Positions 24-45,586 of a stretch of DNA of 64,000 nt are shown piece after piece. Each line of letters opens with the position of its first letter. The first letter of the stretch is position 1. The DNA is from Paraprevotella clara YIT 11840. GTDB taxonomy: Bacteria > Bacteroidota > Bacteroidia > Bacteroidales > Bacteroidaceae. The position numbers and the translations under genes were made by a program. The stretch covers positions 124,001-188,000 of the forward strand of contig NZ_JH376591.1 in the NCBI RefSeq assembly GCF_000233955.1. Reading direction: 5' to 3'. The notes under the pieces were generated by a model. The model had not been told where the DNA came from. It did not search any database and worked only from the letters and a program-made list of their open reading frames with translations.

Positions 24-3000
24 ATGGAAAATAAGATAAAATCAGTGGTGTTGTGGTTGGCTTTCTGCATTTTGGCCGGGGTAGCCTATGCCCAAAGCGG
101 TGGCGTGATTGTCACCGGTAAGGTTTATGCCGATGATGAACCGGATGGTTTCATCGGAGCCACCGTTGTGGAGCAGGACAAGAACGGACGTATATATTCA
201 TCTGCCCTGACGGATTTTAACGGAAACTTTTCATTAAAGGTGAAAGACCCGTCGCATTCTTTGAACTTCTCGTTTGTGGGTTATAAACGTAAAACTCTAC
301 CCATAGGGGCGCAGAGGAAGTTTGATGTGAAATTAGAGACACAGAATGTGCTGAAAGAGGTACAGGTTAAGGCGTCAAAGTTAGTGACGGGGGGCGGTGC
401 GTTGGCTATTCCCGAACGAGAATACTCTGGGGCGATGCAGAAGTTTAATACAAAGGCTATCGAAGGGGTGTCCGTACCTTCTATCGATGATGCCTTGCAG
501 GGACGTATTGCAGGTTTGGATATTGTGGCCAATTCCGGTGACTTGGGTAGTGGCACGGTGATGCGTATCCGTGGTATTACTTCTATCAATTCCAATTCAC
601 AGCCGCTTATCTTGCTGAACGGTATTCCTTTTGAAAGCAATATCGACGATTCGTTTGATTTCGCTTCAGCCGACCAGGAAGAGTTTGCCTCCTTGTTATG
701 TATCAGTCCGGATGACATCGAGGAAATCACGGTTTTGAAAGACGGTGCGGCGGCTGCTATTTGGGGAAGCCGCGGCGCCAATGGTGTGATTGACATCAGG
801 ACAAAGAAGGGTGCAACAGGACCTACACGTGTAAGCTATTCCTATCGTTTTTCAGGTTATACTCAGCCTAAAGGTACGGAATTGCTTAATGGCGATGATT
901 ATACGATGCTCATGAAACAGGCTTATTTTAATCGTGCCCAGCAAGATTGTAATATCCCGGAGTTCAGCTATGACCGTTCACAGTTTATTTCTGCATACGG
1001 AACGGCCCAGGATTTTGAGAACTTTAATAATAATACAGACTGGGTGGATGAGGTGATCAAGCATGGTTTTACCCACGACCACAATCTTTCTGTGAGCGGT
1101 GGTGGTGATAAGGCCAAATTCCGTGCTTCATTCGGTTATTATAATCAGACGGGTACCATTATCGGTCAGGAGATGACCCGTTTTTCCAATCGTATGAATC
1201 TGGACTACAACGTAAGTTCACGGATGATGTTTTCTGCGGAATTTGCTATCACTTATACGGATAATGACAAGAATTATACGGACGATCCGTACGGTGAGGA
1301 TAATTTATTGAACATCGCCCGTAAGCGTATGCCGAATGCATCGGTTTTCCGACAGGATGCCAATGGAAAAAATACGGATGTATACTTCAATATCGCGCAG
1401 AATTCTCAATTGGATGACGCGCAGAAGAATTTGCGTAATCCTGTAGCTATCGGTAACCTGGCTTCCTATCAGCAGACAAGTATGCGTATCATGCCGACAT
1501 TACGCTTACAATATGATTTCTTAGACCCGGCTGGAGAAGCCAAGCTTCGTTATTCGGGTTATATTAAGTTCGATTCTGAGAATGTGAAAGATACCAAGTT
1601 CTTGCCTCGTGAAACTACTTCAAAGAATTGGAACGACGGAAGTGTGAATAAGGCATACGGAAAAGAGAGTGAAGCTTCTTCTATCTATACTGCTCATGAT
1701 TTGACATGGCAACCCAAGCTCCCTGATGCACATTCCTTGATGCTCTATGGCAAGTGGGAAATGGACATGGCCAATTCCAGAAATCAGGAGTTTGAACGTT
1801 ACGGACTGGCTTCCACATCTGCTACGGACGTTACGAACTTGGGACACCTGAACACTTTCAAGAGTGAGCGGAGCGAAGGGCGTAATATGGCTTTTCTTTT
1901 GCAGGGCCACTATTTTCTGCTTGACCGTTACGTGTTCGATGTGACGGCACGTTGGGACGGTAGTACGCGCTTTGGACCGGGAAATCGTTGGGGCTTCTTC
2001 CCTTCTGCATCAGTGAAATGGCTTATCTCGGAAGAGAAGTTCTTTGATTTTGCAGATGATTGGATGGATGAGTTTGCTTTGCGTTTAAGTTATGGTGTAA
2101 CTGGTAACCGTCCTGATTACGAGTACTTGCATTATGCCCGTTACAGTAGTTTCGGGACGAGTTACATCGACATTCCGGCTATTAAACCTTCGTCTCTGCA
2201 ATTGACCGATTTGAAATGGGAACGTTCCACGTCATACAATCTGGGTGTGGATTTGAGCCTTTTCGATTGGCGTTACCGTTTGGTGGCGAACGTGTACCAT
2301 CGTCGTACGGACGACTTGTTATTTAAAGACCAGTCTATCCCATCTTCAACAGGATTTGGTTCCATATCCTATATTAATGGAGGTACGATGGATAATGATG
2401 GTTGGGAAATAGAGTTCAGTACGAACAATATGATAAAACGTGGAGATTGGTCCGTAGATTTGAGCTTGAACTTCTCGAACTATGTGAATACCATCATCGA
2501 TCTGGATGAAAATGTGTTGCATAATTACAATGCAGACTTTAATTACTCTAACGGCTCTTACCTGAACCGTTTCCAGGTGAATAACTCTTTCGGTTCCATT
2601 TACGGTTTCCGTTATAAAGGAGTGTACCAATACGATACTTACCAACCAGACAAACCGGATGCTACGGCACCAGTGGTGCGTGATGCAAATGGTAACGTGG
2701 TGTTAGATGGTTCCGGTGACCCCATTCCGATGTATTTCGCATACGGAACGACGAATGAGTATCGTTTCCGTGGAGGGGATGCAATCTATGAGGATATTAA
2801 CCATGATGGTACGATAGACGAGTTGGACATCGTGTATTTGGGTAACTCCAATCCGAAGTTTGATGGTGGTTTCGGGACGACCATCCGTTGGAAGCGTCTT
2901 TCATTGAACGTGTTCTTCAACTATCGCGTGGGAGGTAAGATTATTAATTACGGACGAATGTATTCCGAGAGTATGTATAATACGGAGAATCAATCAGTGT

Positions 3001-3341
3001 CCACGAACTGGCGTTGGCGCAAGGATGGCGATGTGACGGAAATTCCGCGTGCTCTTTTCCAGAGTGGATATAATTGGTTGGGAAGTGATCGCTTTGTAGA
3101 AGATGGTTCTTTCTTGCGTTTGAAACAGTTGACATTGAATTACTCTTTCGATCCTAAATTGTTGAAGAAGGCGCATCTGAATACTCTTAATCTCTCTTTG
3201 ACGTTGAATAACATGTTTACTGTGACTAAATATACAGGGGCGGATCCTGAGATTTCACCGAATAATATCGGAGTGAGTGAGGATAAAAACCGTACGCCAC
3301 GTTCGCGTTACTTTACGTTTGGCCTGACCATAGGTATTTAA
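24..3341 (+). CDS. SusC-like TonB-dependent outer-membrane transporter (SusC-1, block A)
   Basis: This is a 1105-residue SusC/RagA-family TonB-dependent transporter, which imports large ligands across the outer membrane together with its SusD lid. A signal peptide ends near AYAQ (about residue 24). A carboxypeptidase-D-like regulatory domain follows (about 28-100, VIVTGKVYADDEP through SFVGYK). The plug domain follows, with the family signatures LQGRIAGLDIV, RIRGITSINSNSQPLILLNG and ITVLKDGAAAAIWGSRGANG, and then a long beta-barrel ending PRSRYFTFGLTIGI. Length is normal for the family. The gene lies 19 bases before its SusD partner. It has a close paralogue at 29923-33222. The promoter is not in the window; only 23 bases precede the start. 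Confidence 0.96.
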   Translation: MENKIKSVVLWLAFCILAGVAYAQSGGVIVTGKVYADDEPDGFIGATVVEQDKNGRIYSSALTDFNGNFSLKVKDPSHSLNFSFVGYKRKTLPIGAQRKFDVKLETQNVLKEVQVKASKLVTGGGALAIPEREYSGAMQKFNTKAIEGVSVPSIDDALQGRIAGLDIVANSGDLGSGTVMRIRGITSINSNSQPLILLNGIPFESNIDDSFDFASADQEEFASLLCISPDDIEEITVLKDGAAAAIWGSRGANGVIDIRTKKGATGPTRVSYSYRFSGYTQPKGTELLNGDDYTMLMKQAYFNRAQQDCNIPEFSYDRSQFISAYGTAQDFENFNNNTDWVDEVIKHGFTHDHNLSVSGGGDKAKFRASFGYYNQTGTIIGQEMTRFSNRMNLDYNVSSRMMFSAEFAITYTDNDKNYTDDPYGEDNLLNIARKRMPNASVFRQDANGKNTDVYFNIAQNSQLDDAQKNLRNPVAIGNLASYQQTSMRIMPTLRLQYDFLDPAGEAKLRYSGYIKFDSENVKDTKFLPRETTSKNWNDGSVNKAYGKESEASSIYTAHDLTWQPKLPDAHSLMLYGKWEMDMANSRNQEFERYGLASTSATDVTNLGHLNTFKSERSEGRNMAFLLQGHYFLLDRYVFDVTARWDGSTRFGPGNRWGFFPSASVKWLISEEKFFDFADDWMDEFALRLSYGVTGNRPDYEYLHYARYSSFGTSYIDIPAIKPSSLQLTDLKWERSTSYNLGVDLSLFDWRYRLVANVYHRRTDDLLFKDQSIPSSTGFGSISYINGGTMDNDGWEIEFSTNNMIKRGDWSVDLSLNFSNYVNTIIDLDENVLHNYNADFNYSNGSYLNRFQVNNSFGSIYGFRYKGVYQYDTYQPDKPDATAPVVRDANGNVVLDGSGDPIPMYFAYGTTNEYRFRGGDAIYEDINHDGTIDELDIVYLGNSNPKFDGGFGTTIRWKRLSLNVFFNYRVGGKIINYGRMYSESMYNTENQSVSTNWRWRKDGDVTEIPRALFQSGYNWLGSDRFVEDGSFLRLKQLTLNYSFDPKLLKKAHLNTLNLSLTLNNMFTVTKYTGADPEISPNNIGVSEDKNRTPRSRYFTFGLTIGI

Positions 3342-3360
3342 CTTTTAAAATAAATGTGAG

Positions 3361-4923
3361 ATGAAAAAGTATATATATAAAATAGGTGCCTTCTTCCTAA
3401 GTTTGCCTTTTTTAGGTGTCACGGCTTCCTGTGATGACTGGTTTGGCATTATGCCGCAGTCTGAGATGGTGGCTGAGGATTTTTGGAAAGATGAGCAAGA
3501 TGTGAAAAGTGCTGTAGGTGCTTGTTACAGGGCTATGCTAGAAGACGGCTTTATGCGTCGTTTGATTGTATGGGGTGAATTGCGTTCAGACAATGTGATA
3601 AATGGCTTGGGGACTGATACGGAAATAGGGTATATATTGAATGCAAACCTGAACGAGGCTAATAGTTATTGCAAGTGGAATGATTTTTATACGGTCATTA
3701 ACTACTGCAATACCATGATTCAAAACGCACCGATGGTGAGGGAACGCGATGCGGATTTTACGGAGGAGGACTTGAATCACTATTTGGCAGAGGCCAAGGG
3801 TATCCGTGCATTCTGTTATTTTACGTTGGCACGTACATTTAAAGACATACCTTATATGGAAACTCCTTATGTGGACGATACGCAAAGATTTCAAGTTGAG
3901 CAGACTTCATTTGAAAATGTGTTGGACACTTTGATAAGTGATTTGAAGACCGTGGAGGATGTGGCCGTGTCAGACTACGGTGATACCGAAGCATATAATC
4001 GCGGACGCATAACACAGAAAGCCATTTGGGCCTTGGTGGCTGACATGAGTTTGTGGAGGGGGAACTATCGTCAGTGTGTAGACTACTGTAATAAGATTCT
4101 GACAACGGCGACAAATCCGTTGAGCCTTCTTCCTGCTGATACCTATTTTAATACGGTGTTTGGGCCTGCAAGGGGAAATTCTGATGAAAGTATTTGGGAG
4201 TTGCAGTTCGATCCCAATACGACTAATGGGGCGGTCAGCACGTTTTACGGGAGTTCCAATAACCTTTCTCCGTTGCTGTCTTCACTTGATTTCGATGGAC
4301 AGAATGGAGAGGATTGGTGGGGGGGCTTGGATATGCGCCACGCCCAGTCTTACGTAGAGGATGGGTTGTATATGATTAAGAAATATACTTCTTATTGTTA
4401 TGCTACGGATTTTGAGGATGTGAAGGCCAATGATTTTCAGTATGGAAATAATGAATCCAATTGGATAATTTATCGTTTGGCTGATGTGTATTTGATGAAA
4501 GCCGAAGCTTTAGCTGAACTTGGTGACATTGCCGGGGCTGTTGACATGGTTTCTTATACCTATGATAGGGCACATCCGGATTTGGAGACTGGAAGTTTGA
4601 AGGCTCAGTATCCGGCATCCACTTCGCAATCGGTAATTCGTGATTTGGTTTTCGATGAGCGTCAGCGTGAATTCCTTTTTGAAGGCAAGCGTTATTTCGA
4701 TATTGTACGTCGTGCGCGTCGTGAAGGTAGTGTGACGGCCTTGGTTAATACGTACTTGTTGCGCAAATATGTGGCTATGAGTTTGAATCAAACTACGGTG
4801 CTCAGCAAAATTAACGATATTGATGCCATTTATATGCCTATCCATCAGGATGAATTGCGTTTGAATTCCTTGTTAGAACAGAATGCATTTTATAAAACTT
4901 CGGAAGATATCTCTAAAAATTGA
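3361..4923 (+). CDS. SusD/RagB-family surface glycan-binding lipoprotein (SusD-1, block A)
   Basis: This 520-residue SusD-like outer-membrane lipoprotein is expected to cap the SusC barrel encoded just upstream. The signal peptide ends in the lipobox TASC (Cys24) followed by DDW, an acidic run typical of surface-exposed Bacteroidota lipoproteins. The N-terminal TPR-like half carries AEDFWKDEQDV and AKGIRAFCYFTLAR. The C-terminal SusD/RagB signature is clear: DVYLMKAEALAELGD, then VFDERQREFLFEGKRYFDIVRRAR. The next gene starts five bases after the stop codon, so translation is probably coupled. The block B counterpart is 33231-34775. Confidence 0.96.
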   Translation: MKKYIYKIGAFFLSLPFLGVTASCDDWFGIMPQSEMVAEDFWKDEQDVKSAVGACYRAMLEDGFMRRLIVWGELRSDNVINGLGTDTEIGYILNANLNEANSYCKWNDFYTVINYCNTMIQNAPMVRERDADFTEEDLNHYLAEAKGIRAFCYFTLARTFKDIPYMETPYVDDTQRFQVEQTSFENVLDTLISDLKTVEDVAVSDYGDTEAYNRGRITQKAIWALVADMSLWRGNYRQCVDYCNKILTTATNPLSLLPADTYFNTVFGPARGNSDESIWELQFDPNTTNGAVSTFYGSSNNLSPLLSSLDFDGQNGEDWWGGLDMRHAQSYVEDGLYMIKKYTSYCYATDFEDVKANDFQYGNNESNWIIYRLADVYLMKAEALAELGDIAGAVDMVSYTYDRAHPDLETGSLKAQYPASTSQSVIRDLVFDERQREFLFEGKRYFDIVRRARREGSVTALVNTYLLRKYVAMSLNQTTVLSKINDIDAIYMPIHQDELRLNSLLEQNAFYKTSEDISKN

Positions 4924-4928
4924 CGATT

Positions 4929-6800
4929 ATGAACAAAATACATAGATTATTCAAGTGGGGACTGTGGTCGGTGGCGGTTTTGTGCCTCTCTGGCATGCAG
5001 ATGTCTTGCAATAGCGATGATATTGATGCTGATGCCATGTACACGTTTACGGGCGAGACGGTGGCATCGTTTTGCCAGAACGATCCGGAGTTGTCGGACT
5101 TTTACCAACTGATAACCAAGTGTGGGGCAGATGCTTTATTGGAGGTTTATGGCCACTATACTTGTTTTATACCCAATAATGATGCCATTGCCGCTTATTT
5201 ATCGGAGAACAATAGGTCCTTGGATGACATCACGGTCGAGGAAGCGCAAAAGATTGTGTACAACTGTGTTATCAGAGGTACTGCGGAATATACTTCACAG
5301 GAGTTTGTTGCTGGTTCTTTGTCTTCTATGACTTTGTCTGAGCGTCATTTGATTCTTTCGTTTACTACTTCAACGGATAACAGACGGGAGATTTGGGTAA
5401 ATGGACAGGCTCGTGTGGAACGTTTAGATCAGGAAGTGCACAACGGAGTAATCCATGTGGTGAACAAGGTTATCCAACCTTCAGAAATGACTCTTTTGGA
5501 GGTGATGCAAAATAATGAGAACCTGACTATATGGGCTATGGCTTATGAGGCTTCCGGTTTGAATGAAGGGATGGAGAAACTTTATGATGAAAGTTATGTG
5601 AATACTTATGGGTCGGATATGTATCAATATGGCGACTATAAGTTGCATGTGCCGACGAGCCGCCGTTATGGTTGGACTGCTTTTTGCGAGCCGGATGAAT
5701 TGTTGAGGCAGGCAGGAATTACGGGTAATACTCGCGAAGAGATTTTGGTAAGTTTGGAGAACTATGCTCGTACGTATTACGGTTCTGAGGATTTGGGTAA
5801 TTATAGGAGCGAGAAGAATCCGTTACATCGTTTCGTCGCTTATCACTTGCTGAACCGTCAGATGGCCACGAATGACATGGTGTTCGATACGCCGGCAGCA
5901 TTGATTAATCCGACGTATGCGGATAAATTGGTAGAATATTATGAAACCATGTACACTTATCGCATCATGGAAATCAAGGCCGGTAATAAGATTAACCAGC
6001 AATCCAATGGAGATTATGTGGGCATAGACGAGGCGAATAGCAACATCGAAGCATTGAACGGTTACATCCATACACTGAAGAATATATTGGTGTATGACGA
6101 CGCGGTAATGCGTAATGATGTATTGCACAAACGTATCCGTTTCGATGCCATGTCATTACCTCCACAGTTGACTAACAATAATATTCGTTGGCATAATGTG
6201 GATATTTCCGATGCAAATGGATATACGGTCACTCCGGATTATTGTGGGGAGTATTTTACATTTAACGATGCTTGCTCGTGTCTGATGTGGGGAAGTCAAG
6301 GGTGGGCGGCTTTCCAAGGTGACGAAATCAATATGAAGGACAATTATGACTTCACTTTGCGCTTGTTGCCAGTTCCGCCTGGAAATTGGGAGTTCCGTAT
6401 CGGCTATAATGCCGAAGGATGGCGTGGTATGGGACAAATCTATTTTGATGGGGTTATCACAGGGACGCCTGTTGATTTAAAAATCGGAGACGTGCAAGGC
6501 GATGCCCGTACGGGATGGGTGGCCGATGAATCTACTGCGGACGATGGAGTGGAAAATGATAAGATGATGCGTAATTTGGGATACATGAAGGCACCAGAAT
6601 CTTGTTGGTATGCACATGATAACATTCCGCTTAGGGATTGGTATAAAGCTTTGCGTTACATTGTAAACCAGTATAGTTTCCAAGATTATGGGGCACATAA
6701 GTTGCGTATGCGTAGTGTGGATTTCGCAGGTCGTGAATTTTCCATTGACTATTTCGAGTTTATCCCGGTGGATATGATTCGTGATGAGGATCGCTTGTAA
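4929..6800 (+). CDS. Fasciclin (FAS1)-domain surface lipoprotein, two FAS1 units plus C-terminal domain (block A)
   Basis: This is a 623-residue lipoprotein. I chose the ATG at 4929 over the in-frame TTG at 4920 because the latter overlaps the previous stop and adds only three residues. The lipobox is MSC (Cys27) followed by NSDD. Two FAS1-type units are visible. The first (about 37-190) has LEVYGHYTCFIPNNDAI and ends VHNGVIHVVNKVI. The second (about 190-390) ends near LNGYIHTLKNILVYDD. Residues 400-623 are a separate beta-rich domain (RLLPVPPGNWEFRIGY) that I do not recognise with certainty. FAS1 domains are adhesion modules; a glycan-binding role beside SusCD is inference. The paralogue is 34781-36649. 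Confidence 0.88.
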   Translation: MNKIHRLFKWGLWSVAVLCLSGMQMSCNSDDIDADAMYTFTGETVASFCQNDPELSDFYQLITKCGADALLEVYGHYTCFIPNNDAIAAYLSENNRSLDDITVEEAQKIVYNCVIRGTAEYTSQEFVAGSLSSMTLSERHLILSFTTSTDNRREIWVNGQARVERLDQEVHNGVIHVVNKVIQPSEMTLLEVMQNNENLTIWAMAYEASGLNEGMEKLYDESYVNTYGSDMYQYGDYKLHVPTSRRYGWTAFCEPDELLRQAGITGNTREEILVSLENYARTYYGSEDLGNYRSEKNPLHRFVAYHLLNRQMATNDMVFDTPAALINPTYADKLVEYYETMYTYRIMEIKAGNKINQQSNGDYVGIDEANSNIEALNGYIHTLKNILVYDDAVMRNDVLHKRIRFDAMSLPPQLTNNNIRWHNVDISDANGYTVTPDYCGEYFTFNDACSCLMWGSQGWAAFQGDEINMKDNYDFTLRLLPVPPGNWEFRIGYNAEGWRGMGQIYFDGVITGTPVDLKIGDVQGDARTGWVADESTADDGVENDKMMRNLGYMKAPESCWYAHDNIPLRDWYKALRYIVNQYSFQDYGAHKLRMRSVDFAGREFSIDYFEFIPVDMIRDEDRL

Positions 6801-6824
6801 TAACTATTAAGAAAGTAAGAACAA

Positions 6825-8396
6825 ATGAAACAAATAAATAAAGGAATCATCTGTTTGTTATCGGGGATGGCGTTGTTCGTTTCCTGTAATGACGAGTGGG
6901 ATGCGCACTATGACCGGAATGGTAGTGTGCCTCAGGTCAGCTTGATGGACTTACTCCGTAATGATGCATCGTTAAGTACTTTCACGCAAATAGTGGAGGT
7001 AACGGGGACTGATAGTTTGCTTGTATCCAATCAAACCTACACGGTATGGGCACCAGTAAATGAGGCTCTAATAAATGTGGATATGACAGACCGAGCTGCC
7101 TTGGAACGTTTGGTGAAAAACCATATTGCTCGTTACACTAACCCTACTTCTACGCAGCCTGGAAAGTATATTTATATGCTTAATGGTAAGCGTATGGCAT
7201 ATGATGATGCAGAGTCGTTCAATGGAACATCTTTGGAGGATGGTAATGAACGGGCGATTAATGGTGTTTTGCATAAGTTGAGGGACACTATTCCTTACCG
7301 TTATAATTTCTATGAATATTTGTCTGTCTATCCTGAGTATTCCAAAGTGTATGAGTTCATCAATCGCTTCGTGGAAAAAAGGTATGATGCGTCAGCTAGT
7401 GTAGGAACGGACTCGGTGTTTGTGGATTATAACCCGATGCTTTATTCTTATTATTATGGTATTGGGCATATCGATGATGAGGACTCGCTCTATACTATGA
7501 TTTTGCCGGATAACGCGGCTTGGGATAAAGCTTATGCTCATATCAGTCCTTATTTTACGACATATAATGCAAACGAAGCTGTGGCAGACTCCATTCGCGA
7601 TGTGCAGACAGGGCAAGCTATTCTGAATGGCTTAACATTCAGAGGAAAGGTCGATGATCCGGCATCAAAGGATTCTTTAGTAACGGTTACTGGAAATGTG
7701 ATTTATCAGACGAGCCGTTATTTTGCACCTTATACGAAACTGGATGCTTCCAACGGGCTGATGTACTTAGCGGAGGGGGATTTGATTTTGGATGATACTT
7801 GTACTTGGAATAAAGAAATTCTAGTGGAAGCTGAGTATTTGAATGGGCGGACTACGAGTACCAGTACGAGCGCTTACGTGCGCAATACTGATGTAAATAG
7901 TGCCGTGCAAGGCGTGAGCAACAATAGTTATTTGGAGGTGACCAATGCTACAGGTACGGCGGAAGTCACTTTCGAAATTCCTCAGATTTTGGCTGGCAAA
8001 TATGACGTATATGTGGATTTTGTTCCACCTGTCATTGACGGAGTTGCTTTGGCCGAGGAAAAAACGCGGCTGGAGTTCCGTTTGGTTTATCCACGTGCAG
8101 ACAGAAATGGTACTTCTAATATATCGCGTGACGATGATGATGATCCGGATTTGATTATCGGCGGGGACAGCGTTGGCGATAACAAAGTGAAGACTTTGAA
8201 AGTTTGGAGTGCATTGGAGTTGCCCGCAGCCAATTATTATGATGGAATGTGGTTTATGGATGAGAATAATTCCACAGATGACGTAAAGGTGCGTACAACG
8301 CTTCGTATTCGTACCAATGTGAAAGCTTCGGAGGTAAATGTGAAATATCGTCGTCGTTTTCGAGTAGACCGTATTCGTTTTGTGCCTGTACCTTGA
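6825..8396 (+). CDS. Fasciclin (FAS1)-domain surface lipoprotein, single unit (block A)
   Basis: This 523-residue lipoprotein has lipobox FVSC (Cys21) followed by NDEWD. An N-terminal FAS1-like unit (about 30-160) shows YTVWAPVNEAL, LVKNHIARY and INGVLHKLRDTIPYRYNFYEYL. A central stretch has YTMILPDNAAWDKAY, which looks like a second, diverged FAS1 unit. The C-terminal half (about 330-523) contains KYDVYVDFVPPVIDG and ends in basic RRRFRVDRIRFVPVP. This tail has the look of a beta-sandwich carbohydrate-binding module, but I cannot assign a family. It sits 24 bases after the preceding FAS1 gene and 28 before the second SusC. The paralogue is 36666-38246, with the same domain order. Confidence 0.85.
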   Translation: MKQINKGIICLLSGMALFVSCNDEWDAHYDRNGSVPQVSLMDLLRNDASLSTFTQIVEVTGTDSLLVSNQTYTVWAPVNEALINVDMTDRAALERLVKNHIARYTNPTSTQPGKYIYMLNGKRMAYDDAESFNGTSLEDGNERAINGVLHKLRDTIPYRYNFYEYLSVYPEYSKVYEFINRFVEKRYDASASVGTDSVFVDYNPMLYSYYYGIGHIDDEDSLYTMILPDNAAWDKAYAHISPYFTTYNANEAVADSIRDVQTGQAILNGLTFRGKVDDPASKDSLVTVTGNVIYQTSRYFAPYTKLDASNGLMYLAEGDLILDDTCTWNKEILVEAEYLNGRTTSTSTSAYVRNTDVNSAVQGVSNNSYLEVTNATGTAEVTFEIPQILAGKYDVYVDFVPPVIDGVALAEEKTRLEFRLVYPRADRNGTSNISRDDDDDPDLIIGGDSVGDNKVKTLKVWSALELPAANYYDGMWFMDENNSTDDVKVRTTLRIRTNVKASEVNVKYRRRFRVDRIRFVPVP

Positions 8397-8424
8397 TTTG
8401 TTAATCCTTAAAGCATGATGAGTT

Positions 8425-11400: not shown

Positions 11401-11613
11401 CTGATGTTGTCATACCGTGTTCCGGTACGTTCCACTTCATTCCTGCAAGGAGTATCGGTATGGGCTGCAGTGAACAATCTTTGCACGCTGACGAAGTATT
11501 TGGGTACGGATCCTGAATTTTCATACAACCAGTCTGTGCTTTACCAAGGTGTGGATGCCGGGTTGACACCACAATCTCGTTCGTTTCAGATTGGGGTGAA
11601 ATTGAATTTATAA
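8425..11613 (+). CDS. SusC-like TonB-dependent outer-membrane transporter (SusC-2, block A)
   Basis: This 1062-residue SusC-family transporter is distinct from SusC-1. The regulatory domain (about 50-115) begins HVKGRVVDAVTGLGFAGARI. The plug has FVRGYNSLNLSSQPLFVVDG and KVTVLKNGSAIWGTRGANG. The barrel ends SRSFQIGVKLNL. An unusual acidic spacer (about 130-145, YYDDEMSVSDG) lies between the regulatory domain and the plug; the block B copy keeps it. The stop codon overlaps the first possible start of the following SusD gene (TAATG), so the pair is probably translationally coupled. Having two different SusC genes in one operon suggests two ligands or two sizes of one ligand, but that is inference. 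The paralogue is 38267-41449. Confidence 0.95.
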   Translation: MYSIFNSYLLKLTGTVAGLAFFSFALKGQETAHVDSIKTGQTEKVQMPYHVKGRVVDAVTGLGFAGARITTPDVNVSAMTDENGDYEIGLPDLRVPLYVDAPGYSRQVVAVKGRTEVNVSLYTVPGHSYYDDEMSVSDGRVVVDGFTASALSMTEDMNSLLAGQMRTSARSGEPGASASYFVRGYNSLNLSSQPLFVVDGVVWQMQDEGISIVDGYYNNPLTLLDPSDIDKVTVLKNGSAIWGTRGANGVVLIQTKRAGEMATKIDANISFGFQTPFETLPVMGADAYRRYATDVMSGMDRHEVEDFQFTNDDPSRSFYRAVHNNTDWMDEINKTAFIQNYGISVSGGDDIALYRFSLGYAQNNGNIDGTKFDRLNVRFNSDIKLTDEFKILFDIAYTQTGHKVTFDGLDRMRSPYYLALVKSPLYSPYQYNESGSLSGRLTDVDELNYGNPLALLEKDNMPTLDKYRFTLNLRPTYQITDRLEAAALFGFSYDKENEDLFIPDAGVANEPLYNDLGEVYATALNEVRSSMARQTSLSLDAYLKWDILKGYRHNLFAALGYRFYNDYFKYTYGQGYNTGSDYMTALSNTTSDLRYLFGTEYMDRNMSWYLNADYGFMNKYFLNIGMSMETSSRFGNEAGGIDLCGVSWGYFPSVSGAWLISSEKFMRNVDFINNLKLRVAYTMTGNGNLPVYANRTYFTSSLVANDAVGVVLSNIGNEKLRWETTGRANVGFDFSILANRLNMNIDYFYSKTKDLVTLRSLNEEAGLQYYYDNNGEMENRGFEIAANARIVDTKDFKFNAGLTVGHYKNKITSLPNGSFTTEVAGGTVLTTEGQPAGVFYGYQTDGVYVTAQEAADAGLAILSSSGQRIPFSAGDMRFVDHSKDGIIGEDDRVVIGDPNPDIYGNFNLNFRWRDLELGALFTYSLGNDAYNALRANLESGNSLSNQSIAMENRWMADGQMTDIPRATYDDPMGNARFSDRWIEDASYLKFKRLMLSYRVPVRSTSFLQGVSVWAAVNNLCTLTKYLGTDPEFSYNQSVLYQGVDAGLTPQSRSFQIGVKLNL

Positions 11614-13421: not shown

Positions 13422-13477
13422 AGACGGGGTATATTTGTCATTAAAAAATGAATTATAAATATAGGAGAAGAATATAT

Positions 13478-20826: not shown

Positions 20827-20924
20827 ATTTTTTGCGCCGTAATTCTTGCGGTTTTTCTGTTTTTTTTAGTCTCTTTGTGACCGTGAATATAATGCTTGGA
20901 AAATTAACTCTTAAACGAATAGCA

Positions 20925-36649: not shown

Positions 36650-36665
36650 ATAAGGAAATGAACGT

Positions 36666-38246: not shown

Positions 38247-38266
38247 AAACTCATTAAAGCATAAGT

Positions 38267-41200
38267 ATGATGACTAATATATCAAAATACCATTCAGTAA
38301 AAGTGATAAGTGCCGTGATGGGATTTATCGTGTTGTCAGAGCTTGCCGTAGCACAGGATATGGGAAAAAATGATAGTGTTGCGGTGAGGACGGAGAAAAC
38401 GGATATGCCCTATAAAGTGAAAGGACGGATAATAGATGCTGTGACGAAAAAAGGATTTGCCGGTGCCCGTGTGACGACTCCTAATTTGAATGTTTCTGCC
38501 ATGACGGATGAGAACGGAAATTATGAGATTGGAGTGCCGGACTTGTCGGTGGCGCTTTATGTAGAGGCACCCGGATATTCAAGACAGGTCGTACCGGTGA
38601 AAGGGCGCAATGAAGTCAATGTATCATTGTTTACGGTATCCGGACATGCGTACTATGACGACGGGATGTCTGTGTCGGACGGTGAAGCCGTGGTGGATGG
38701 GTTTACATCCGGAACTTTGAGCATGACCGATGATATGACGTCGTTGCTAAACGGTCAGTTGCGTGCTATTTCCCACTCGGGGGATCCCGGTAGCAGTTCC
38801 TCGTTCTTTATCAGGGGATATAATTCCGTGAACCTTTCTGCCCAACCTTTGTTTGTGGTGGACGGTGTGATATGGCAGATGCAGGATCAAGTAGCCAGTG
38901 CTGTGGATAATTATTATAATAACCCTTTGACCTTGCTTGACCCGTCGGATATTGAAAAAGTCACGATTTTAAAGAACGGTTCTGCGGTCTGGGGAGCTAA
39001 GGGTGCCAATGGTGTGGTACTGATAGACACGAAACGTGCACGTGAAATGGCCACCCAGATTGAAGCGAATATTTCTATGGGATTTCAGACACCTTTTGGA
39101 AGTCTGCCTCTGATGGGTGCGGCGGCCTATCGGCGTTATGCGACAGATATTATGTCCGGTATGGACCGCAATGAAGTTGAAGGTTTCCAGTTTACCAATG
39201 ACGACCCGACCCGTTCGTTTTACCGTGCGGTACACAACGATACGAAATGGACGGATAAAATCAACAAGACGTCATTTATCCAAAACTATGGCATTTCGGT
39301 TGCCGGTGGGGATGATATTGCGCTTTATCGTTTCTCCTTGGGATATGCCAAGAACGACGGAAACATAGACGGGACGAGTTTCAACCGTTTGAACGTACGT
39401 TTTAATTCAGACATCAAATTGACGGAGGATTTTAAAATCCAGACCGACATCTCTTATGCGCAAACAGGGCGCAGGACTGTTTTTGAAGGGTTGGACGGCA
39501 TGCGTTCACCTTATTTCCTATCATTGGTAAAGTCCCCGTTGTATGCTCCGTGGCAGTACAACGACAATGGGACATTCAGCGGGCGTTTGACGGATGTCGA
39601 CGAATTGAATATCGGTAACCCCTTGGCGTTGACAGGCGAAGACGTTCCCGAGTTGGATAAATATCGTTTTAATTTGAACCTAAGGCCGAGTTATCAGATA
39701 ACGGACCGCTTGGAGGTTGCTGCTTTATTCGGGATTTCTTATGACAAAGAGAATGAAAACCTATTTATACCAGATTACGGTGTTTCCAATGAGCCGTTGT
39801 ATACCGACAGGGGAGAGATTTACGAAACGGCGTTGAATGAGGTGCGTAATTTCATGGCCCGGCAGACATCCATGTCTGTAGATGGTTATTTGGCATGGCA
39901 GATTCTGAAGGACTGGCGGCATGACTTGAATGCACGTGTCGGAGGCCGCTTTTACAATACCTATTATCGTTATACCATGGGACAGGGGTATAATACGGGA
40001 AGCGACTATATGACTGCGCTTTCCAATACAAACAGCGACCTCCGTACATTGACCGGATATGAGTATACGGATCGGAATGCGGCCTGGTATTTTAATGCGG
40101 ATTATGCTTACCGGCACCGTTACTTTTTCAATGTCGGCATGTCTTTGGAAACGTCTTCGCGTTTTGGCCGTGAAGCAGGAGGATTAGATTTATGTGGTGT
40201 TTCCTGGGGGTATTTCCCGTCTGTCTCCGGGGCTTGGTTGGTTTCATCGGAAAAGTTCATGCGAAATGTGGATTTTATCAACAATCTCAAAGTCCGTGTG
40301 GCTTATACGATGTCGGGCAACGATAACCTTCCGCTTTTCGCCAATAGAAGTTATTTTACTTCTACGTCTTTCGTTAAGGATGCTACGGGCTTGGTTTTGG
40401 CTAATATCGGCAATGAGAAATTGAAATGGGAAACTACGGCAAGAACCAATATCGGCTTGGATTTTAGTATGTTTTCAAATCGTTTGGCTGTGAATGCCGA
40501 TGTCTTTTTCTCTCGTACTAAAGATTTGGTAACGCGTAGGCCGCTGAATGATGAAGCTGGGCTGGAATATTTCTGGGACAATGACGGAGAAATGAAAAAT
40601 AATGGTTTGGAAGTCGCCGTGAAGGTTCGGGCATTGGATATGCGTGACTTTAAATTAAACATCGGGGCAACAGTCGGACATTACAAAAACGAGGTGACGT
40701 CCTTGGAAAATGGAAGTTTCATTACCGAAGTATGTGACGGACAAGTGCTGACCGAGGTTGGTCGCCCGGTGGGTGTATTTTATGGTTATCTTACGGACGG
40801 GGTCTACTCCACTTCGCAAGAAGCGACCGAAGCTGGTCTGGCCATCCTTTCTTCTTCAGGGCAACGCGTGCCCTTCCAAGCCGGCGATATGCGCTTTGTG
40901 GATGTGAAAAAGGATGGAATTATCAATGAAGAGGACCGAGTGGTAATAGGAGACCCGAATCCGGACATTTACGGAAACTTCGATCTGACTTTCCAATGGA
41001 AGAATCTGGAGCTGGGAGCGTTGTTTACTTATTCGTTGGGGAATGATGCTTATAATGCTTTGCGTGCCAGTTTGGAGTCGGGAAAGAGTTTGTATAACCA
41101 GTCTTCCTCCATGGAAAACAGATGGATGGGCAACGGGCAGCAAACGGATATTCCTCGTGCCACGTATGACGACCCTATGGGAAATTCACGTTTCTCGGAT

Positions 41201-41449
41201 CGTTGGATCGAAGATGCTTCTTACCTGAAGTTCAAACGTTTGATGCTTACTTATCATGTTCCGATGAGGCAGAATTTTATTCAAAGCCTTTCTGTTTGGG
41301 CTGCCGTGAACAATGTTTGTACGTTGACGAAGTATTTGGGTGTCGACCCGGAGTTTTCTTATAGTACATCTGTATTGGAACAGGGCATTGATGGAGGGTT
41401 GACCCCCCAGTCCAGATCGTTTCAGTTGGGTGTGAATATCAATTTATAA
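38267..41449 (+). CDS. SusC-like TonB-dependent outer-membrane transporter (SusC-2, block B)
   Basis: This 1060-residue SusC-family transporter pairs with the SusD at 41457 and is paralogous to 8425-11613. The signal peptide ends near AVAQ. The regulatory domain begins YKVKGRIIDAVTKKGFAGARV, the same acidic spacer as in block A follows (YYDDGMSVSDG), and the plug has FIRGYNSVNLSAQPLFVVDG and KVTILKNGSAVWGAKGANG. The barrel ends SRSFQLGVNINL. The plug reads WGAKGANG where most family members have WGxRGANG, a minor but visible change. Confidence 0.95.
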   Translation: MMTNISKYHSVKVISAVMGFIVLSELAVAQDMGKNDSVAVRTEKTDMPYKVKGRIIDAVTKKGFAGARVTTPNLNVSAMTDENGNYEIGVPDLSVALYVEAPGYSRQVVPVKGRNEVNVSLFTVSGHAYYDDGMSVSDGEAVVDGFTSGTLSMTDDMTSLLNGQLRAISHSGDPGSSSSFFIRGYNSVNLSAQPLFVVDGVIWQMQDQVASAVDNYYNNPLTLLDPSDIEKVTILKNGSAVWGAKGANGVVLIDTKRAREMATQIEANISMGFQTPFGSLPLMGAAAYRRYATDIMSGMDRNEVEGFQFTNDDPTRSFYRAVHNDTKWTDKINKTSFIQNYGISVAGGDDIALYRFSLGYAKNDGNIDGTSFNRLNVRFNSDIKLTEDFKIQTDISYAQTGRRTVFEGLDGMRSPYFLSLVKSPLYAPWQYNDNGTFSGRLTDVDELNIGNPLALTGEDVPELDKYRFNLNLRPSYQITDRLEVAALFGISYDKENENLFIPDYGVSNEPLYTDRGEIYETALNEVRNFMARQTSMSVDGYLAWQILKDWRHDLNARVGGRFYNTYYRYTMGQGYNTGSDYMTALSNTNSDLRTLTGYEYTDRNAAWYFNADYAYRHRYFFNVGMSLETSSRFGREAGGLDLCGVSWGYFPSVSGAWLVSSEKFMRNVDFINNLKVRVAYTMSGNDNLPLFANRSYFTSTSFVKDATGLVLANIGNEKLKWETTARTNIGLDFSMFSNRLAVNADVFFSRTKDLVTRRPLNDEAGLEYFWDNDGEMKNNGLEVAVKVRALDMRDFKLNIGATVGHYKNEVTSLENGSFITEVCDGQVLTEVGRPVGVFYGYLTDGVYSTSQEATEAGLAILSSSGQRVPFQAGDMRFVDVKKDGIINEEDRVVIGDPNPDIYGNFDLTFQWKNLELGALFTYSLGNDAYNALRASLESGKSLYNQSSSMENRWMGNGQQTDIPRATYDDPMGNSRFSDRWIEDASYLKFKRLMLTYHVPMRQNFIQSLSVWAAVNNVCTLTKYLGVDPEFSYSTSVLEQGIDGGLTPQSRSFQLGVNINL

Positions 41450-41456
41450 TGTAAAA

Positions 41457-43187
41457 ATGTCGGTTATGAAGATGAATATAAAGAACATGAAGACGGTTTG
41501 GGGAGCATGGATTTGCTTAGGGTTATTAGTACCTACGGCTTGTTCCGACATGTTTGAGACAGATTCGACTTCGGTCGTTTTTGAGTCGGGGAATCGCTTG
41601 GATTCTCCCAATGATTCGCTGTATTCCATCATGGGGATACTGGCTCAAATTCAGAAGTTAGGAGATAGGTATGTACTGATGGGGGAACTACGTGGCGATT
41701 TAATGGAGACCACGGTCAATGCAGATGTGGACCTTCAGGAAATATCCAAATTTGAGGTTTCTGCTTCCAACCAGTATAAGATGATGAATGATTATTATCA
41801 GGTCATTAATAATTGTAATTACGCGATAGCCCACATGGATACGACTTTGGTTGATTACGAAGATAAAGTTATGATACCTGAATTCGCACAAATCAAAGTG
41901 TTAAGGGCATGGACTTATTGGCAATTGGCGTTGCTTTGTGGCGAAGTCAGTTGGATTGAAACTCCGATTTTGGATTTGGAAGCCAGTTTGAAGGATTATC
42001 CACAGAAAAACCAAGAACAGTTGGCAGAGCTTCTGATAGAAGACTTGAAACCATATATCGGAGTCAGGGATTTGAACTACGGTTCCGTGGATGGTTTGAA
42101 CCTTGATAAGGTATTTATTCCGGTGGACATGCTTTTGGGCGATTTATACCTGTTCTTGAACCAATATGCGAATGCGGCCACCGCATATTACAGGCTGATA
42201 AAGGAACGGGAACTGATGGTGACATCGATGTATCGTAATTCATGGCTTGACATATCCCGTAGGGGCTTTTCGTATTTTACACATACATCGGGGCTGTCTT
42301 ATGCTAGCAGCGAGGTTGTATCATCCTTTGTTTACAGTTCGGACGCAAAGGCTTACCATCCTTTGTTGCTCCGCATGTCTTACAACGACAAGGCTTTTAT
42401 TGCTCCGGCGCAATCTTTTGTGGACGAAATGTCAAACGCTTTATATGTGGTAGGCGTAGAAGGAAAGCCGACGGTGTCCGGATATTGTGATGGAGACATG
42501 CGGGGGCAAGCTATTCTTGCCGGAGGTCAGGTTTATCCTTCAGCCTATGGTTCAATGACACTGAACAATGTTGCAGCTACATATATATGTAAATTTTTCA
42601 ACATGGACAATACTTCAGTGTCGGGAAGCGACCCCGAAAATGAGGCTTTGGGGGGATTGTACCTGCAGCGGACTTTGCCTTTATATCGGGTTTCTCATGT
42701 TTACCTCCGTTTGGCTGAAGCCTTGAACCGTTTGGAAAAACCGACGATGGCTTTTGCGGTTTTAAAATATGGATTGAATGCCACGACGCTTGAAAATCCT
42801 AATCGGGTTAAACAGAGTGAACGCAAAGGGGAAATATACACGGATTTCACGGAAGACATCTTTGCAGACAACGTAGGTACGGCTACTCGTGGACGGGGAA
42901 ACGGTATTCCATACGATAATGAATTTTATATCATCCCGGATTTCAATACGGAAACTTCAACTGGAACGTTGGAAGATTCCATCTTGTTTGTGGAAGACTG
43001 TATCGTGGATGAAATGGCGGCGGAGACATGTTTTGAAGGCAACAGGTTCTTTGATTTGCTGAGGGTGGCTCGTCATCGTAACCAATATCCGGCTTATATG
43101 GCTAAAAAGGTTTCCAAACGTTTCGGAGAAAATGCGGAAAGAATGGAGCAGGCCTTGATGGAAGAAGAGCGTTGGTACATGAAATAG
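41457..43187 (+). CDS. SusD/RagB-family lipoprotein (SusD-2, block B)
   Basis: This 576-residue SusD-like lipoprotein is paralogous to 11613-13421. Several in-frame ATG codons lie close together near the start (41457, 41466, 41472, 41487); the first follows the SusC stop by seven bases. The lipobox is TAC followed by SDMFETD. SusD features include VLRAWTYWQLALLCG, HVYLRLAEALNRLEK and IVDEMAAETCFEGNRFFDLLRVARHR. The acidic insertion near the C-terminus of the block A protein is mostly absent here, which accounts for the shorter length. Confidence 0.93.
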   Translation: MSVMKMNIKNMKTVWGAWICLGLLVPTACSDMFETDSTSVVFESGNRLDSPNDSLYSIMGILAQIQKLGDRYVLMGELRGDLMETTVNADVDLQEISKFEVSASNQYKMMNDYYQVINNCNYAIAHMDTTLVDYEDKVMIPEFAQIKVLRAWTYWQLALLCGEVSWIETPILDLEASLKDYPQKNQEQLAELLIEDLKPYIGVRDLNYGSVDGLNLDKVFIPVDMLLGDLYLFLNQYANAATAYYRLIKERELMVTSMYRNSWLDISRRGFSYFTHTSGLSYASSEVVSSFVYSSDAKAYHPLLLRMSYNDKAFIAPAQSFVDEMSNALYVVGVEGKPTVSGYCDGDMRGQAILAGGQVYPSAYGSMTLNNVAATYICKFFNMDNTSVSGSDPENEALGGLYLQRTLPLYRVSHVYLRLAEALNRLEKPTMAFAVLKYGLNATTLENPNRVKQSERKGEIYTDFTEDIFADNVGTATRGRGNGIPYDNEFYIIPDFNTETSTGTLEDSILFVEDCIVDEMAAETCFEGNRFFDLLRVARHRNQYPAYMAKKVSKRFGENAERMEQALMEEERWYMK

Positions 43188-43228
43188 TGTATGTAAGAAT
43201 AATCAGTGTTTAATTAAAAAATGTAATT

Positions 43229-45586
43229 ATGAAAAAGGAGACTTTCAAACAAATGTTGTTCAGTGCGGCTTTGTTGACTTCAGTTTTTGAAGTGCAGGCC
43301 CAAGACAACCCGATCACATTTACACGTGATATGACGTTTAGGGAAAACTATGGTTGGGCGAATAGTATGTGTACTCCCAAAATCGGCGATTTCGATAATG
43401 ACGGAGTCAATGATTTATGGTTGGACGGCCAGCGTCAATCGTATAGTTGGCAAACCCGTACTGTGTTTGCCAAAGGATTGGGAGAAAGGACGTTCCAGGC
43501 CGACTTTGAACCTATAATGGAAACCGAGTTGGATTCTACTATCGTACAGAAGACCGATACGATATGGAAAACGGATGAAAGTGGTGATTTCGTATTGGAC
43601 GGCGAAGGCAATAAGATTGTAGAAGAAATCATACCGGTGGTAGATGATGAAGGTAAGCCGGTGAATGATACGATTGTGACGAAAAATGAGGTCTATGTCG
43701 GCACACAGAACGGTCTGCCGCAGACGGCTTGGAGCGTCGGGTCGCAACCCATTGATTTCAATGCCGACGGTTTAGTGGACTACCTGATTCTCCATCCCGG
43801 AAAAGTAGGTGACCTTCAGGGGTATATATTGGTAAAGAATTTAGGAAACGGTAAATTTGAAGTGGTGGAAGACGAAGTGCTTAGTTCCATTAAATTTTCC
43901 GAGAGCCCGAAAAAAGGCGATTACAACCGGTTTAATGAAGACAACGCTTATACTTCGGTCGTAACGGGTGATTATGACAAAGACGGATATGTGGACCTTT
44001 TGATAACCGGCAATGCATACGACGGACGTTTTGTGAAGTTGCTTCGTAACGTAAACGGCGAACGTTTTGAAGAAATGAACGTGTTCGAACCATTGCCTTT
44101 TGATGTAGAAGTGAACCGTCACGGGCTGTGGGAAGAAAGCGGTGCCGGCGAAGATCCGGAAACAGGCGATCCTATCGAGAGCGTGTATTTCCAGGATCAG
44201 CCTACCATGAAAGCCAAACCTTTGAGTCATGGTTCCGTGGTCTTTTTCGATATGGACAATGACGGTTGGTTGGACATCGTGGTTTCCGGATATGCGGATG
44301 GCACAGCCATGGGGGATGTCGGGGTAGAACCAGATGGAGATGAAATCCGTTTCTATCACAACCAGAAAGACGGTACGTTTAAGGACGTGACAGACCAGTT
44401 GATTCCGGCTGCTCAGGAAGTTTTGGCCAATTTGGGACTCGAGACTACGGGGACAGTGTCAGATGTATTTACGGCTTGGGGATCTAACAATACGGTGATG
44501 ATGGCCACGGACTATAATCAGGACGGTTTGTTGGACCTTTGGATCAGTGGGAAGAAAAGAGGCGACATTCATGAGACTTTCTGCCTTATCAATACTCCGA
44601 CTGAGGGTAGTGTGTTCAGTTTCGTTGAAGAGACAGTGCCTATGGTGGGCATGACGGATGCCGGAAACCGGGGATTCTTCTATGCGGATTTCAATGGTGA
44701 TGATGTGCCGGACTTATATCACCGCGGACATTCCGACGCCTTGAAACCCGATGGCAACAAATGGGATTGGTGTCGAGTTTTTGAAGTGAGTGAAGGCGGA
44801 AGCGTAGGTCTTTATACATCGTATGATTTAGGTTATTGGAGTAACGACATTTTCGGAGGCTTCACATGGATTTGGGATGATTCGGATCCTGTTCCGGGTA
44901 ACTTCGGTGATGTGGACAATGATGGCAAGCTGGATATCATGGCTGGAGGTTATGAAGGCGGCACGGATAACTTCATCATCAGTTACAATGAGACCGATTA
45001 TGAGCCGGTTTATCCGGATGCGCCTACAGAAGTGACGGCTGAGGCTGCAGAAAACGGCCAAGTGACGGTGAAATGGCCTGCTTCTTATTTGAGCAATGGC
45101 AATGTGGCAGTCCACAATGTGTATATCTGCAACAACGAGACGGGTGCCGTCCGGATGCTGGTCCCGGCCAATACGGAAACCGGCAAGCAGTTGGCTTATA
45201 GCATGTTCGGCGCGTATGCCGTAAACTATTCCATGGATGAAGGTTTATGCTTCTATGTGTTCGAGAAATTGCCGGCCGGTAGCTATACCGTGGGTGTGCA
45301 GGCCGTGAACTATGCTTATTTGGCCAGTGGTTTCACGACGACGGAAGTGACCGTGACAGACGGGTATGAGACCGGTATCCAAGCTCCGGAGAAGCAGACA
45401 GATGTGAAGGTTGCCATTGAAGGCAATGTAATCACGGTGAATAGTTCAGAGTCTGCTGCGGTAGCCATCTACAATATGCAAGGTGCCGAGGTGGCTACGG
45501 GAATGACAAATACTCCTATTACAGTAAATGGCAGAGGGGTGTTTGTTGTAAAGACAAACCATAAAGCGGTTAAGATCGTGAAGTAA
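43229..45586 (+). CDS. Secreted FG-GAP/VCBS propeller protein with Fn3-like domain and C-terminal sorting-like tail (block B)
   Basis: This is a 785-residue protein. The signal peptide ends near EVQAQ. Calcium-loop repeats of FG-GAP/VCBS type are DFDNDGVND, DFNADGLVD, DYDKDGYVD, DMDNDGWLD, DYNQDGLLD, DFNGDDVPD and DVDNDGKLD. The Fn3-like domain has VTVKWPASYLSNGNVAV, and the last residues are VAIYNMQGAEVATGM ... GVFVVKTNHKAVKIVK, nearly the same as the block A tails. The charged insertion after the first loop is longer here (EESIxP-type acidic text around residues 110-150). Block B has only this one propeller. Confidence 0.85.
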   Translation: MKKETFKQMLFSAALLTSVFEVQAQDNPITFTRDMTFRENYGWANSMCTPKIGDFDNDGVNDLWLDGQRQSYSWQTRTVFAKGLGERTFQADFEPIMETELDSTIVQKTDTIWKTDESGDFVLDGEGNKIVEEIIPVVDDEGKPVNDTIVTKNEVYVGTQNGLPQTAWSVGSQPIDFNADGLVDYLILHPGKVGDLQGYILVKNLGNGKFEVVEDEVLSSIKFSESPKKGDYNRFNEDNAYTSVVTGDYDKDGYVDLLITGNAYDGRFVKLLRNVNGERFEEMNVFEPLPFDVEVNRHGLWEESGAGEDPETGDPIESVYFQDQPTMKAKPLSHGSVVFFDMDNDGWLDIVVSGYADGTAMGDVGVEPDGDEIRFYHNQKDGTFKDVTDQLIPAAQEVLANLGLETTGTVSDVFTAWGSNNTVMMATDYNQDGLLDLWISGKKRGDIHETFCLINTPTEGSVFSFVEETVPMVGMTDAGNRGFFYADFNGDDVPDLYHRGHSDALKPDGNKWDWCRVFEVSEGGSVGLYTSYDLGYWSNDIFGGFTWIWDDSDPVPGNFGDVDNDGKLDIMAGGYEGGTDNFIISYNETDYEPVYPDAPTEVTAEAAENGQVTVKWPASYLSNGNVAVHNVYICNNETGAVRMLVPANTETGKQLAYSMFGAYAVNYSMDEGLCFYVFEKLPAGSYTVGVQAVNYAYLASGFTTTEVTVTDGYETGIQAPEKQTDVKVAIEGNVITVNSSESAAVAIYNMQGAEVATGMTNTPITVNGRGVFVVKTNHKAVKIVK

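Follow-up and report, generated by a model that had tools for sequence, protein, structure and literature searches.

We analysed a 64,000-nucleotide stretch of the genome of Paraprevotella clara YIT 11840 (contig NZ_JH376591.1, here C15; C15:124001-188000; assembly size 4.23 Mb), which we call the window, and found that it carries two blocks, A and B, built on a seven-gene cassette in the order FAS0-SusC1-SusD1-FASa-FASb-SusC2-SusD2. The names FAS0, FASa, FASb, SusC1 and SusC2 were coined in the present analysis. We consider it likely that the cassette is an old, portable outer-membrane module for the capture and import of glycans, in which FASa and FASb serve as surface glycan-binding lipoproteins.

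Pfam matches gave the order SusC, SusD, Fasciclin, Fasciclin, SusC, SusD, FG-GAP at 24-15811 and again at 29923-45586. This confirmed the claim of an earlier note on this DNA that it holds two tandem, diverged copies with the gene order kept; identities between A and B range from 45 to 83%. The same note counted six core genes. The order and unity of that core were borne out, but a third FAS1 gene, FAS0, stands directly 5′ of each SusC1, and because of this the core is counted as seven genes; in addition, FASa is not always found in its place in other genomes. Core genes are spaced by −4 to +28 bp and are listed below.

C15:121380-124001 (L001:13380-16001; last base at window 1..1), plus strand, cassette A FAS0, 58% identical to FAS0 of B
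24..3341, plus strand, cassette A SusC1, TonB-dependent transporter (Pfam Plug, TonB barrel; TIGR04056)
3361..4923, plus strand, cassette A SusD1 (Pfam SusD_RagB, SusD-like_3)
4920..6800, plus strand, cassette A FASa, predicted lipoprotein with two FAS1 domains and a C-terminal beta-sandwich like a carbohydrate-binding module (CBM) (Pfam Fasciclin; AlphaFold2; Foldseek)
6825..8396, plus strand, cassette A FASb, predicted lipoprotein with two FAS1 domains and a C-terminal CBM-like beta-sandwich (Pfam Fasciclin; AlphaFold2; Foldseek)
8425..11613, plus strand, cassette A SusC2 (Pfam Plug; TIGR04056, 622 bits; SusC homologs in PDB)
11613..13421, plus strand, cassette A SusD2 (Pfam SusD_RagB)
27248..29905, plus strand, cassette B FAS0, predicted lipoprotein with about four FAS1 repeats (Pfam Fasciclin; profile tiling)
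29923..33222, plus strand, cassette B SusC1 (Pfam; 83% identical to A)
33231..34775, plus strand, cassette B SusD1 (Pfam; 66% to A)
34781..36649, plus strand, cassette B FASa (Pfam; 57% to A)
36666..38246, plus strand, cassette B FASb (Pfam; 59% to A)
38267..41449, plus strand, cassette B SusC2 (Pfam; 73% to A)
41457..43187, plus strand, cassette B SusD2 (Pfam; 53% to A)

Each SusC is a SusC-type transporter with a plug domain and has the gene of a SusD lipoprotein adjoining it (Pfam, TIGR04056), as in SusCD importers, and SusC1 and SusC2 share 26-27% identity. The FAS1 proteins match PF02469 above its cut-off; for FASa and FASb the fold was also recovered by Foldseek, for FAS0 by profile only. 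At E 0.001, FAS0, FASa, FASb and SusD2 had no match to an NCBIfam model.

The genome of P. clara itself holds seven cassettes, five of them beyond the window on C21 (two), C39 (two) and C23, so that the two copies noted earlier are both real and are part of a larger set. In one of the seven (L004) FASa lies before FAS0 and not between SusD1 and FASb. To follow the cassette into other genomes we scanned with a SusC2 profile, taking the best 80 of 584 relatives, chosen by likeness to the window SusC2. These named loci include Bacteroides nordii, Prevotella, Muribaculaceae, Paludibacter, Maribellus, Geofilum, Pedobacter, Mucilaginibacter and many metagenome-assembled genomes, among which names such as Roseburia and Clostridium probably reflect faulty binning. 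Part of the input for rebuilding the profiles used in labelling came from the same 80 loci, so that their labels are partly circular; stretches from the order, family and phylum searches lie outside the profiles.

In the order sample (149 genomes) there were 31 SusC2 matches in 16 genomes at E ≤ 1e-180, covering 14 family codes, own family included, and the FASb profile matched 22 genomes at E ≤ 1e-8. All 24 FASb matches of this sample with E < 1e-15 outside the own genome lie inside cassettes. Six of the 22 genomes (G005, G015, G103, G117, G124, G125) had no SusC2 match at the cut used, and their FAS1 matches are weak (34-44 bits). The family search (61 genomes) gave SusC2 above 900 bits in 30 genomes, own included, with 63 matches, 56 of them outside the own genome; the phylum search (296 genomes) gave strong SusC2 in seven genomes, own included, with seven matches outside it. 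All outside matches were fetched and profile-labelled (26 order, 56 family, 7 phylum), and every strong SusC2 outside the own genome in the family and phylum searches stood inside a cassette (63/63; 56 family, 7 phylum). The threshold near 900 bits was chosen once a gap between 931 and 749 had been seen.

Gene order was tallied on stop-to-stop frames in 173 stretches, 171 of which have SusC2 (80 named, 28 of 30 order, 56 family and 7 phylum); the other two are L140, where a contig end leaves the 5′ part of a cassette, and L143, which has a FASa-like gene on its own. The tally excludes the own-genome stretches (L001-L014), short ones (L095-L114), L145-L147 (a contig-end fragment with FAS0 and SusC1, an isolated FASa-like gene and a stretch that gave no matches) and the diverged or single-pair loci L211-L216. 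The sets overlap, as in L015 and L149, whose identities to the genes of the window are equal, so that some of the 171 stretches are not independent of each other. SusD2 follows next after SusC2 in all 171, FASb lies directly 5′ of SusC2 in all 168 with room for it, and SusC1 followed by SusD1 is found upstream of SusC2 in all 157 within reach. Of the 150 stretches with room for it, 149 have FAS0 immediately 5′ of SusC1; in the remaining one, L115, it comes after SusD2. FASa stands between SusD1 and FASb in 137/157 cassettes; it is displaced to a position after SusD2 in L116 and L128 and before FAS0 in L123 and L195.

SusC1 without SusC2, or the reverse, was not seen in these samples, in which scoring covered the 2 to 12 best candidates of each genome and a lower-ranked lone SusC1 or SusC2 could be missed. 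The possibility raised in the earlier note, that the pairs and the FAS1 genes occur apart as often as together, did not hold in the samples, where well-scoring FASb accompanied SusC1 and SusC2. Other FAS1 proteins do exist outside cassettes, in the six genomes with weak matches and in the own genome, where they make up 4 of 19 Fasciclin matches (C30, C4, C3, C5). Three of these four have no SusC-like neighbour in the fetched stretch, the C30 contig being 4.5 kb long; the fourth, on C5 (L014:9193-14744), encodes a 255-amino-acid (aa) FAS1 protein after a single, distantly related SusC-SusD pair.

Some stretches showed further peculiarities. FASa is multiplied within one cassette, with three tandem copies in L169 (2517-19900) and two in L036 and L041, and the FASb gene of the Bacteroides nordii cassette (L016:8311-9884) is interrupted and spans two overlapping frames, perhaps through misassembly or because the gene is broken. 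Apparent gaps in greedy open reading frame (ORF) calls, concerning SusD1 (L065, L198), SusC1 and FASa (L156) and SusC1 and SusD2 (L161), were due to longer antisense ORFs, and the genes are revealed in stop-to-stop frames.

Comparison of gene trees, proposed in the earlier note as a check, gave agreement between the six families. FastTree trees were built for 82 cassettes (75 of 110 loci and the 7 own ones) in which all six genes are single long ORFs, those with missing, doubled or cut genes being dropped. Mantel r was 0.857-0.953 over the 15 pairs of trees vs. at most 0.281 when shuffled (200 each); the six trees have 52-62 of 79 splits in common, and strong splits conflict in 0-4 cases per pair. 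This supports inheritance of the cassette as one unit. Mapping of contacts by partial correlation of tree distances was also tried, with SusC1-FASa best (0.53), but as the expected partners SusC1 and SusD1 gave −0.04 the method fails to show contacts and was left unused.

In a midpoint-rooted FastTree tree of 73 SusC proteins, in which some deep nodes are weak, SusC1 and SusC2 form separate clades of largely matching inner order, and single-pair loci stand next to the SusC1 clade. Four single-pair loci were fetched just below the score gap. Three of them carry a FAS1, CBM96 and Cadherin_3 lipoprotein after SusC-SusD (L213:12202-18140, L214:12059-18014, L215:1475-7577), and the fourth, L216, carries SusE/F. 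Two further loci, L211 (3447-16049) and L212 (1-9637), have the order FAS1-SusC1-SusD1-FAS1-SusC2-like, with a diverged SusC2; SusD comes next in L211, and L212 ends within SusC2. Like the cassette, L211-L215 combine SusCD with FAS1 lipoproteins, and their SusC falls in or next to the SusC1 clade; they differ from it in having one pair (L213-L215) or, where there are two pairs, no more than two FAS1 genes (L211-L212), and are possible forerunners or reduced forms of the double module. In the phylum search 11 matches to SusC1 went past 1e-240; for nine of them a strong SusC2 lies about 5 kb further along, and the other two are L211 and L212, so that no SusC1 without a second SusC was found with two candidates per genome scored.

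The tandem arrangement in the window is younger than the module. Identities of L148, a cassette of the same genus, to A and B are 91 and 82% for SusC1, 73 and 61% for SusD1, 72 and 57% for FASa, 81 and 57% for FASb, 86 and 72% for SusC2, and 69 and 51% for SusD2. L148 is thus nearer to A than to B in all six genes, which places the A/B tandem duplication before the split from L148. Judged from these comparisons, the A/B duplication is nonetheless recent relative to the age of the module.

AlphaFold2 models of FASb (523 aa; pLDDT 91.6, pTM 0.86; alignment of 74 sequences) and FASa (626 aa; pLDDT 91.3, pTM 0.87; 64 sequences), both based on the window and the named loci, were compared with known structures using Foldseek. 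Tandem FAS1 structures, periostin and TGFBIp, were nearest to both models, and CBM folds were found lower down, with E values of 5e-6 to 1e-3: MiXBM (7ehg), CBM22 (4xun/4xup), CBM6 (2cdp), CBM61 (2xon) and CBM35 (2w47). The Foldseek table holds no query ranges; we assigned the CBM-fold matches from the strand pattern to the predicted C-terminal beta-sandwich, at about 328-523 in FASb and 440-617 in FASa. A sequence match of FASa to 7ehg at profile positions 497-570 (E 0.085) agrees with this placement. In the C-terminal domain of FASb, E337 (61/74), D515 (59/74) and P521 (68/74) are kept, residues which we take to recall CBM6/35. FAS0 was resolved by profile tiling into about four FAS1 repeats starting near 43, 258, 458 and 665, the third being weak (about 80% probability), with no CBM-like part found by this method.

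A lipobox-like pattern, searched by regular expression, was present in most of the putative surface proteins: SusD1 155/165, FASa 134/157, FASb 161/169, SusD2 164/172 and FAS0 72/102, some FAS0 being cut by the stretch end, vs. a background of 26/159 in SusC1 and 19/176 in SusC2. FASa and FASb thus carry the lipoprotein signal of a surface glycan-binding protein (SGBP). An acidic stretch after the lipobox directs Bacteroidota lipoproteins outward. At least two acidic residues in the next six positions were counted in 90/155 SusD1, 105/134 FASa, 133/161 FASb, 137/164 SusD2 and 49/72 FAS0 (background: SusC1 13/26, SusC2 0/19).

The cassettes of the window lie among carbohydrate-active genes. Upstream of A there are GH2 (glycoside hydrolase, GH, family 2), a hybrid two-component sensor, GH95 and GH92, and genes between and after the cassettes are given below.

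13448..15811, plus strand, FG-GAP protein, accessory (Pfam FG-GAP_3)
15917..18244, plus strand, second FG-GAP protein, accessory (Pfam; 49% to the first FG-GAP protein)
18502..20772, plus strand, GH3 enzyme (Pfam)
20832..23327, plus strand, alpha-galactosidase-like protein (C-terminal Melibiase_C below cut-off; 52% to the 23347..25467 protein)
23347..25467, plus strand, alpha-galactosidase-like protein (Melibiase_C; distant to PDB 1zy9/5m0x, E 4e-5)
25475..26161, plus strand, GDSL-like esterase (Pfam Lipase_GDSL_2)
43229..45586, plus strand, FG-GAP protein, accessory (Pfam; 45% to its counterpart after A)
45730..48147, plus strand, alpha-galactosidase-like protein after B (Melibiase_C; 55% to the other two such proteins)

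The A/B region thus combines carbohydrate enzymes with a dedicated regulator in the same locus, as expected of a polysaccharide utilization locus (PUL). Other cassettes of the own genome adjoin an alpha-fucosidase, GH67, GH43, GH28 and an alginate-lyase-like protein, and neighbours in other genomes include GH115, GH98, GH28, GH95, GH2 and a rhamnosidase, as well as housekeeping genes. Neighbours were collected as same-strand ORFs of at least 250 aa in steps of at most 500 bp, up to three per locus, leaving out three FAS1 first neighbours (L115, L116, L128). Among the 25 most frequent Pfam families of 70 (49 first neighbours) and 74 (46 later ones), no carbohydrate-enzyme family occurred in more than two members, and hence no fixed substrate emerged. 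Because it sits in loci with different enzyme sets, the module seems to be reused across loci and to serve several substrates, with no single one indicated.

FG-GAP proteins of about 780 aa follow both cassettes (13448-18244, 43229-45586). The earlier note included FG-GAP in the conserved order, and this is so within A and B; as a core gene it was rejected, for in L148 GH3 comes directly after SusD2, and an FG-GAP profile match after SusD2 was found in two of the 80 named loci (L019, L069). The first FG-GAP protein had no PDB sequence match at E 0.1. The three related proteins of 700-830 aa with weak Melibiase_C (20832-23327, 23347-25467, 45730-48147) possibly form a distant alpha-galactosidase-like family. 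About 1.0-1.1 kb with no Pfam-supported gene precedes FAS0 of A (L001:12349-13379) and of B (window 26162-27247). The best stretch common to both leaders is 26 bp with two mismatches (L001:12590, window 26600), and L012:7612 on the minus strand holds another near match, with three mismatches; the stretch is possibly a regulator site or leader. Further along the window, positions 48451-57530 on the minus strand encode an acyltransferase, an FG-GAP protein, GH43 and a series of glycosyltransferases, which looks like a separate region of surface-polysaccharide type, and a gene like a PD-(D/E)XK nuclease family transposase lies beside glycosyltransferases at 57884-58720.

We infer from these results that the CBM-like domains bind glycans, that the lipoproteins are surface exposed, that FAS0 has a scaffold role and that the products of the cassette work jointly as one assembly. 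SusC1D1 and SusC2D2 would be two distinct lid-and-barrel transporters. FASa and FASb, each with a lipid anchor, two FAS1 domains and a CBM-like domain at the far end, would hold glycan chains at their tips for cleavage by the surface enzymes that the locus encodes, and both SusCD pairs would import the products. FAS0, with about four FAS1 domains and no recognised binding module, may bridge or space the other parts as a spacer or scaffold. By analogy, capture by FASa and FASb would follow the levan utilisome, in which the SusC2D2 core carries an SGBP that is anchored at its N-terminus and binds through a C-terminal domain (PMC7618045).

Several observations weigh against glycan capture by such a module. 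The TM-scores by target for the CBMs named above are 0.33-0.70 and the likeness rests on fold; the same Foldseek lists hold phage tailspikes (7xyc, 8iq5, 5w6h) and Cry toxins (1i5p, 2c9k), and because these jelly-roll proteins match too, the fold by itself is no proof that sugars are bound. The FASb profile found no CBM among PDB sequences up to E 10, and no Pfam CBM model matches FASa or FASb at E 0.001. Between the C-terminal domains of FASa and FASb hhalign gave a probability of 20%, with no clear kinship. That of FASb shows the lowest conservation among the six parts compared (mean pairwise identity 23.5%), which fits varied ligands but also relaxed constraint. FASa is absent from its place between SusD1 and FASb in 20/157 cassettes, and housekeeping genes occur as neighbours, with a tRNA synthetase as first neighbour in 2/49.

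A strong alternative, to which we give close to an even chance, is that the cassette encodes two separate importers in one operon, each SusCD acting alone as an ordinary homodimer on one of two products derived from a single glycan, and sharing the FAS1 lipoproteins as binding proteins without a joint complex. Because it touches only the one-assembly step, our confidence in it overlaps with that in glycan capture and import by the module. The 26-27% identity of SusC1 and SusC2 fits different cargo; the SusCDs of the levan and dextran systems are dimers (SusC2D2) associated with SGBP and GH (PMC7618045), and two-pair loci, xusABCD and BT0361-BT0364, are described as two transporters (PMC7848910, PMC8002723). 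Yet neither SusC was seen alone in our samples, whereas xusA-xusB can be missing (PMC7848910), and FASb stands directly before SusC2 wherever there is room. The opposite possibility, a single obligate hetero-assembly of all seven proteins in which SusC1D1 pairs with SusC2D2 in place of homodimers, and about eight FAS1 domains hold two ports and two glycan-binding tips, we regard as tentative and rather unlikely. The fixed 1:1 pairing of the two SusC proteins would fit a SusC1-SusC2 heterodimer, although no feature of the sequence points to contact; one physical complex with two ports, as suggested in the earlier note, is plausible.

The levan and dextran utilisomes (SusC2D2-SGBP2-GH2) resemble the cassette in that genes of surface lipoproteins adjoin those of the SusCD core; they have one SusCD pair and a GH in the complex, with no FAS1 mentioned in the sections seen (PMC7618045), and the cassette has two pairs, three FAS1 genes and no fixed enzyme. 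The Xus locus (xusA-xusB-xusC-xusD-xusE-xyn10C) is likewise from Bacteroidota and has two SusC and two SusD in tandem, but its pairs are adjacent and followed by one binding protein, and the excerpts of PMC7848910 and PMC8002723 mention no FAS1 between them; in the cassette FASb separates the pairs, with SusC1-SusD1 further upstream. The arabinan PUL of B. thetaiotaomicron (BT0361-BT0364, SGBP BT0365) also has two SusCD pairs and a surface binding protein, and no FAS1 sandwich in the excerpt of its description (PMC8002723). A figure legend on a Gramella portivictoriae PUL places a FAS1 domain protein beside SusD, as in the cassette, and this legend, the part of the entry seen, describes no module, order or second pair (PMC4891872). 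Two SusCD pairs in a block, which the earlier note set against the single pair of most described glycan systems, are thus not unusual alone, since Xus and the arabinan PUL have been described. No description of a double-SusCD FAS1 module was found in open-licence PMC papers, the search not reaching subscription papers and preprints.

The FAS1 proteins could instead be adhesins to particles or cells that travel with the transporters and are no glycan-binding parts of an importer. Periostin, TGFBIp and fasciclin I, which have FAS1 domains, are cell-adhesion proteins, and the first two are the nearest structures to our models. One paper reads a symbiont FAS1 protein as an adhesin and, in the part seen, reports two SusCD pairs separately (PMC10199937). 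Against this stand the predicted C-terminal CBM-like folds, the fixed place of the genes inside a transporter operon, the agreement of their trees with those of the SusCDs and the FAS1-CBM96 proteins in three single-pair loci, and we hold the adhesin explanation to be improbable.

An import of peptides or glycopeptides is less probable still. RagAB, relatives of SusCD, import peptides, and RagA is among the PDB matches of SusC2; the nearby genes, however, include glycoside hydrolases, lyases and hybrid two-component sensors, and there is no peptidase among the 25 most frequent Pfam families of either neighbour set (45 and 49 further families rank below these). Finally, operons do persist by descent, but that the fixed order reflects nothing besides inherited linkage of a recently spread operon, with no functional need, is hardly credible, given that the order is kept at about 24-32% mean pairwise identity of FASb domains across the set and that some cassettes have lost or relocated FASa, whereas FASb, SusC1-SusD1 and SusC2-SusD2 are in place throughout the tally.

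SusCD systems are main glycan importers of Bacteroidota, and some loci have two pairs. In the cassette described here two distinct pairs and FAS1 lipoproteins occur together in every sampled stretch within reach, which makes the two-port question testable. The module also suggests that FAS1-CBM-like proteins are a class of glycan-binding lipoproteins that has gone unnoticed, and it offers a marker for the annotation of PULs. If true, a single hetero-assembly would be a two-port utilisome reused for many substrates.

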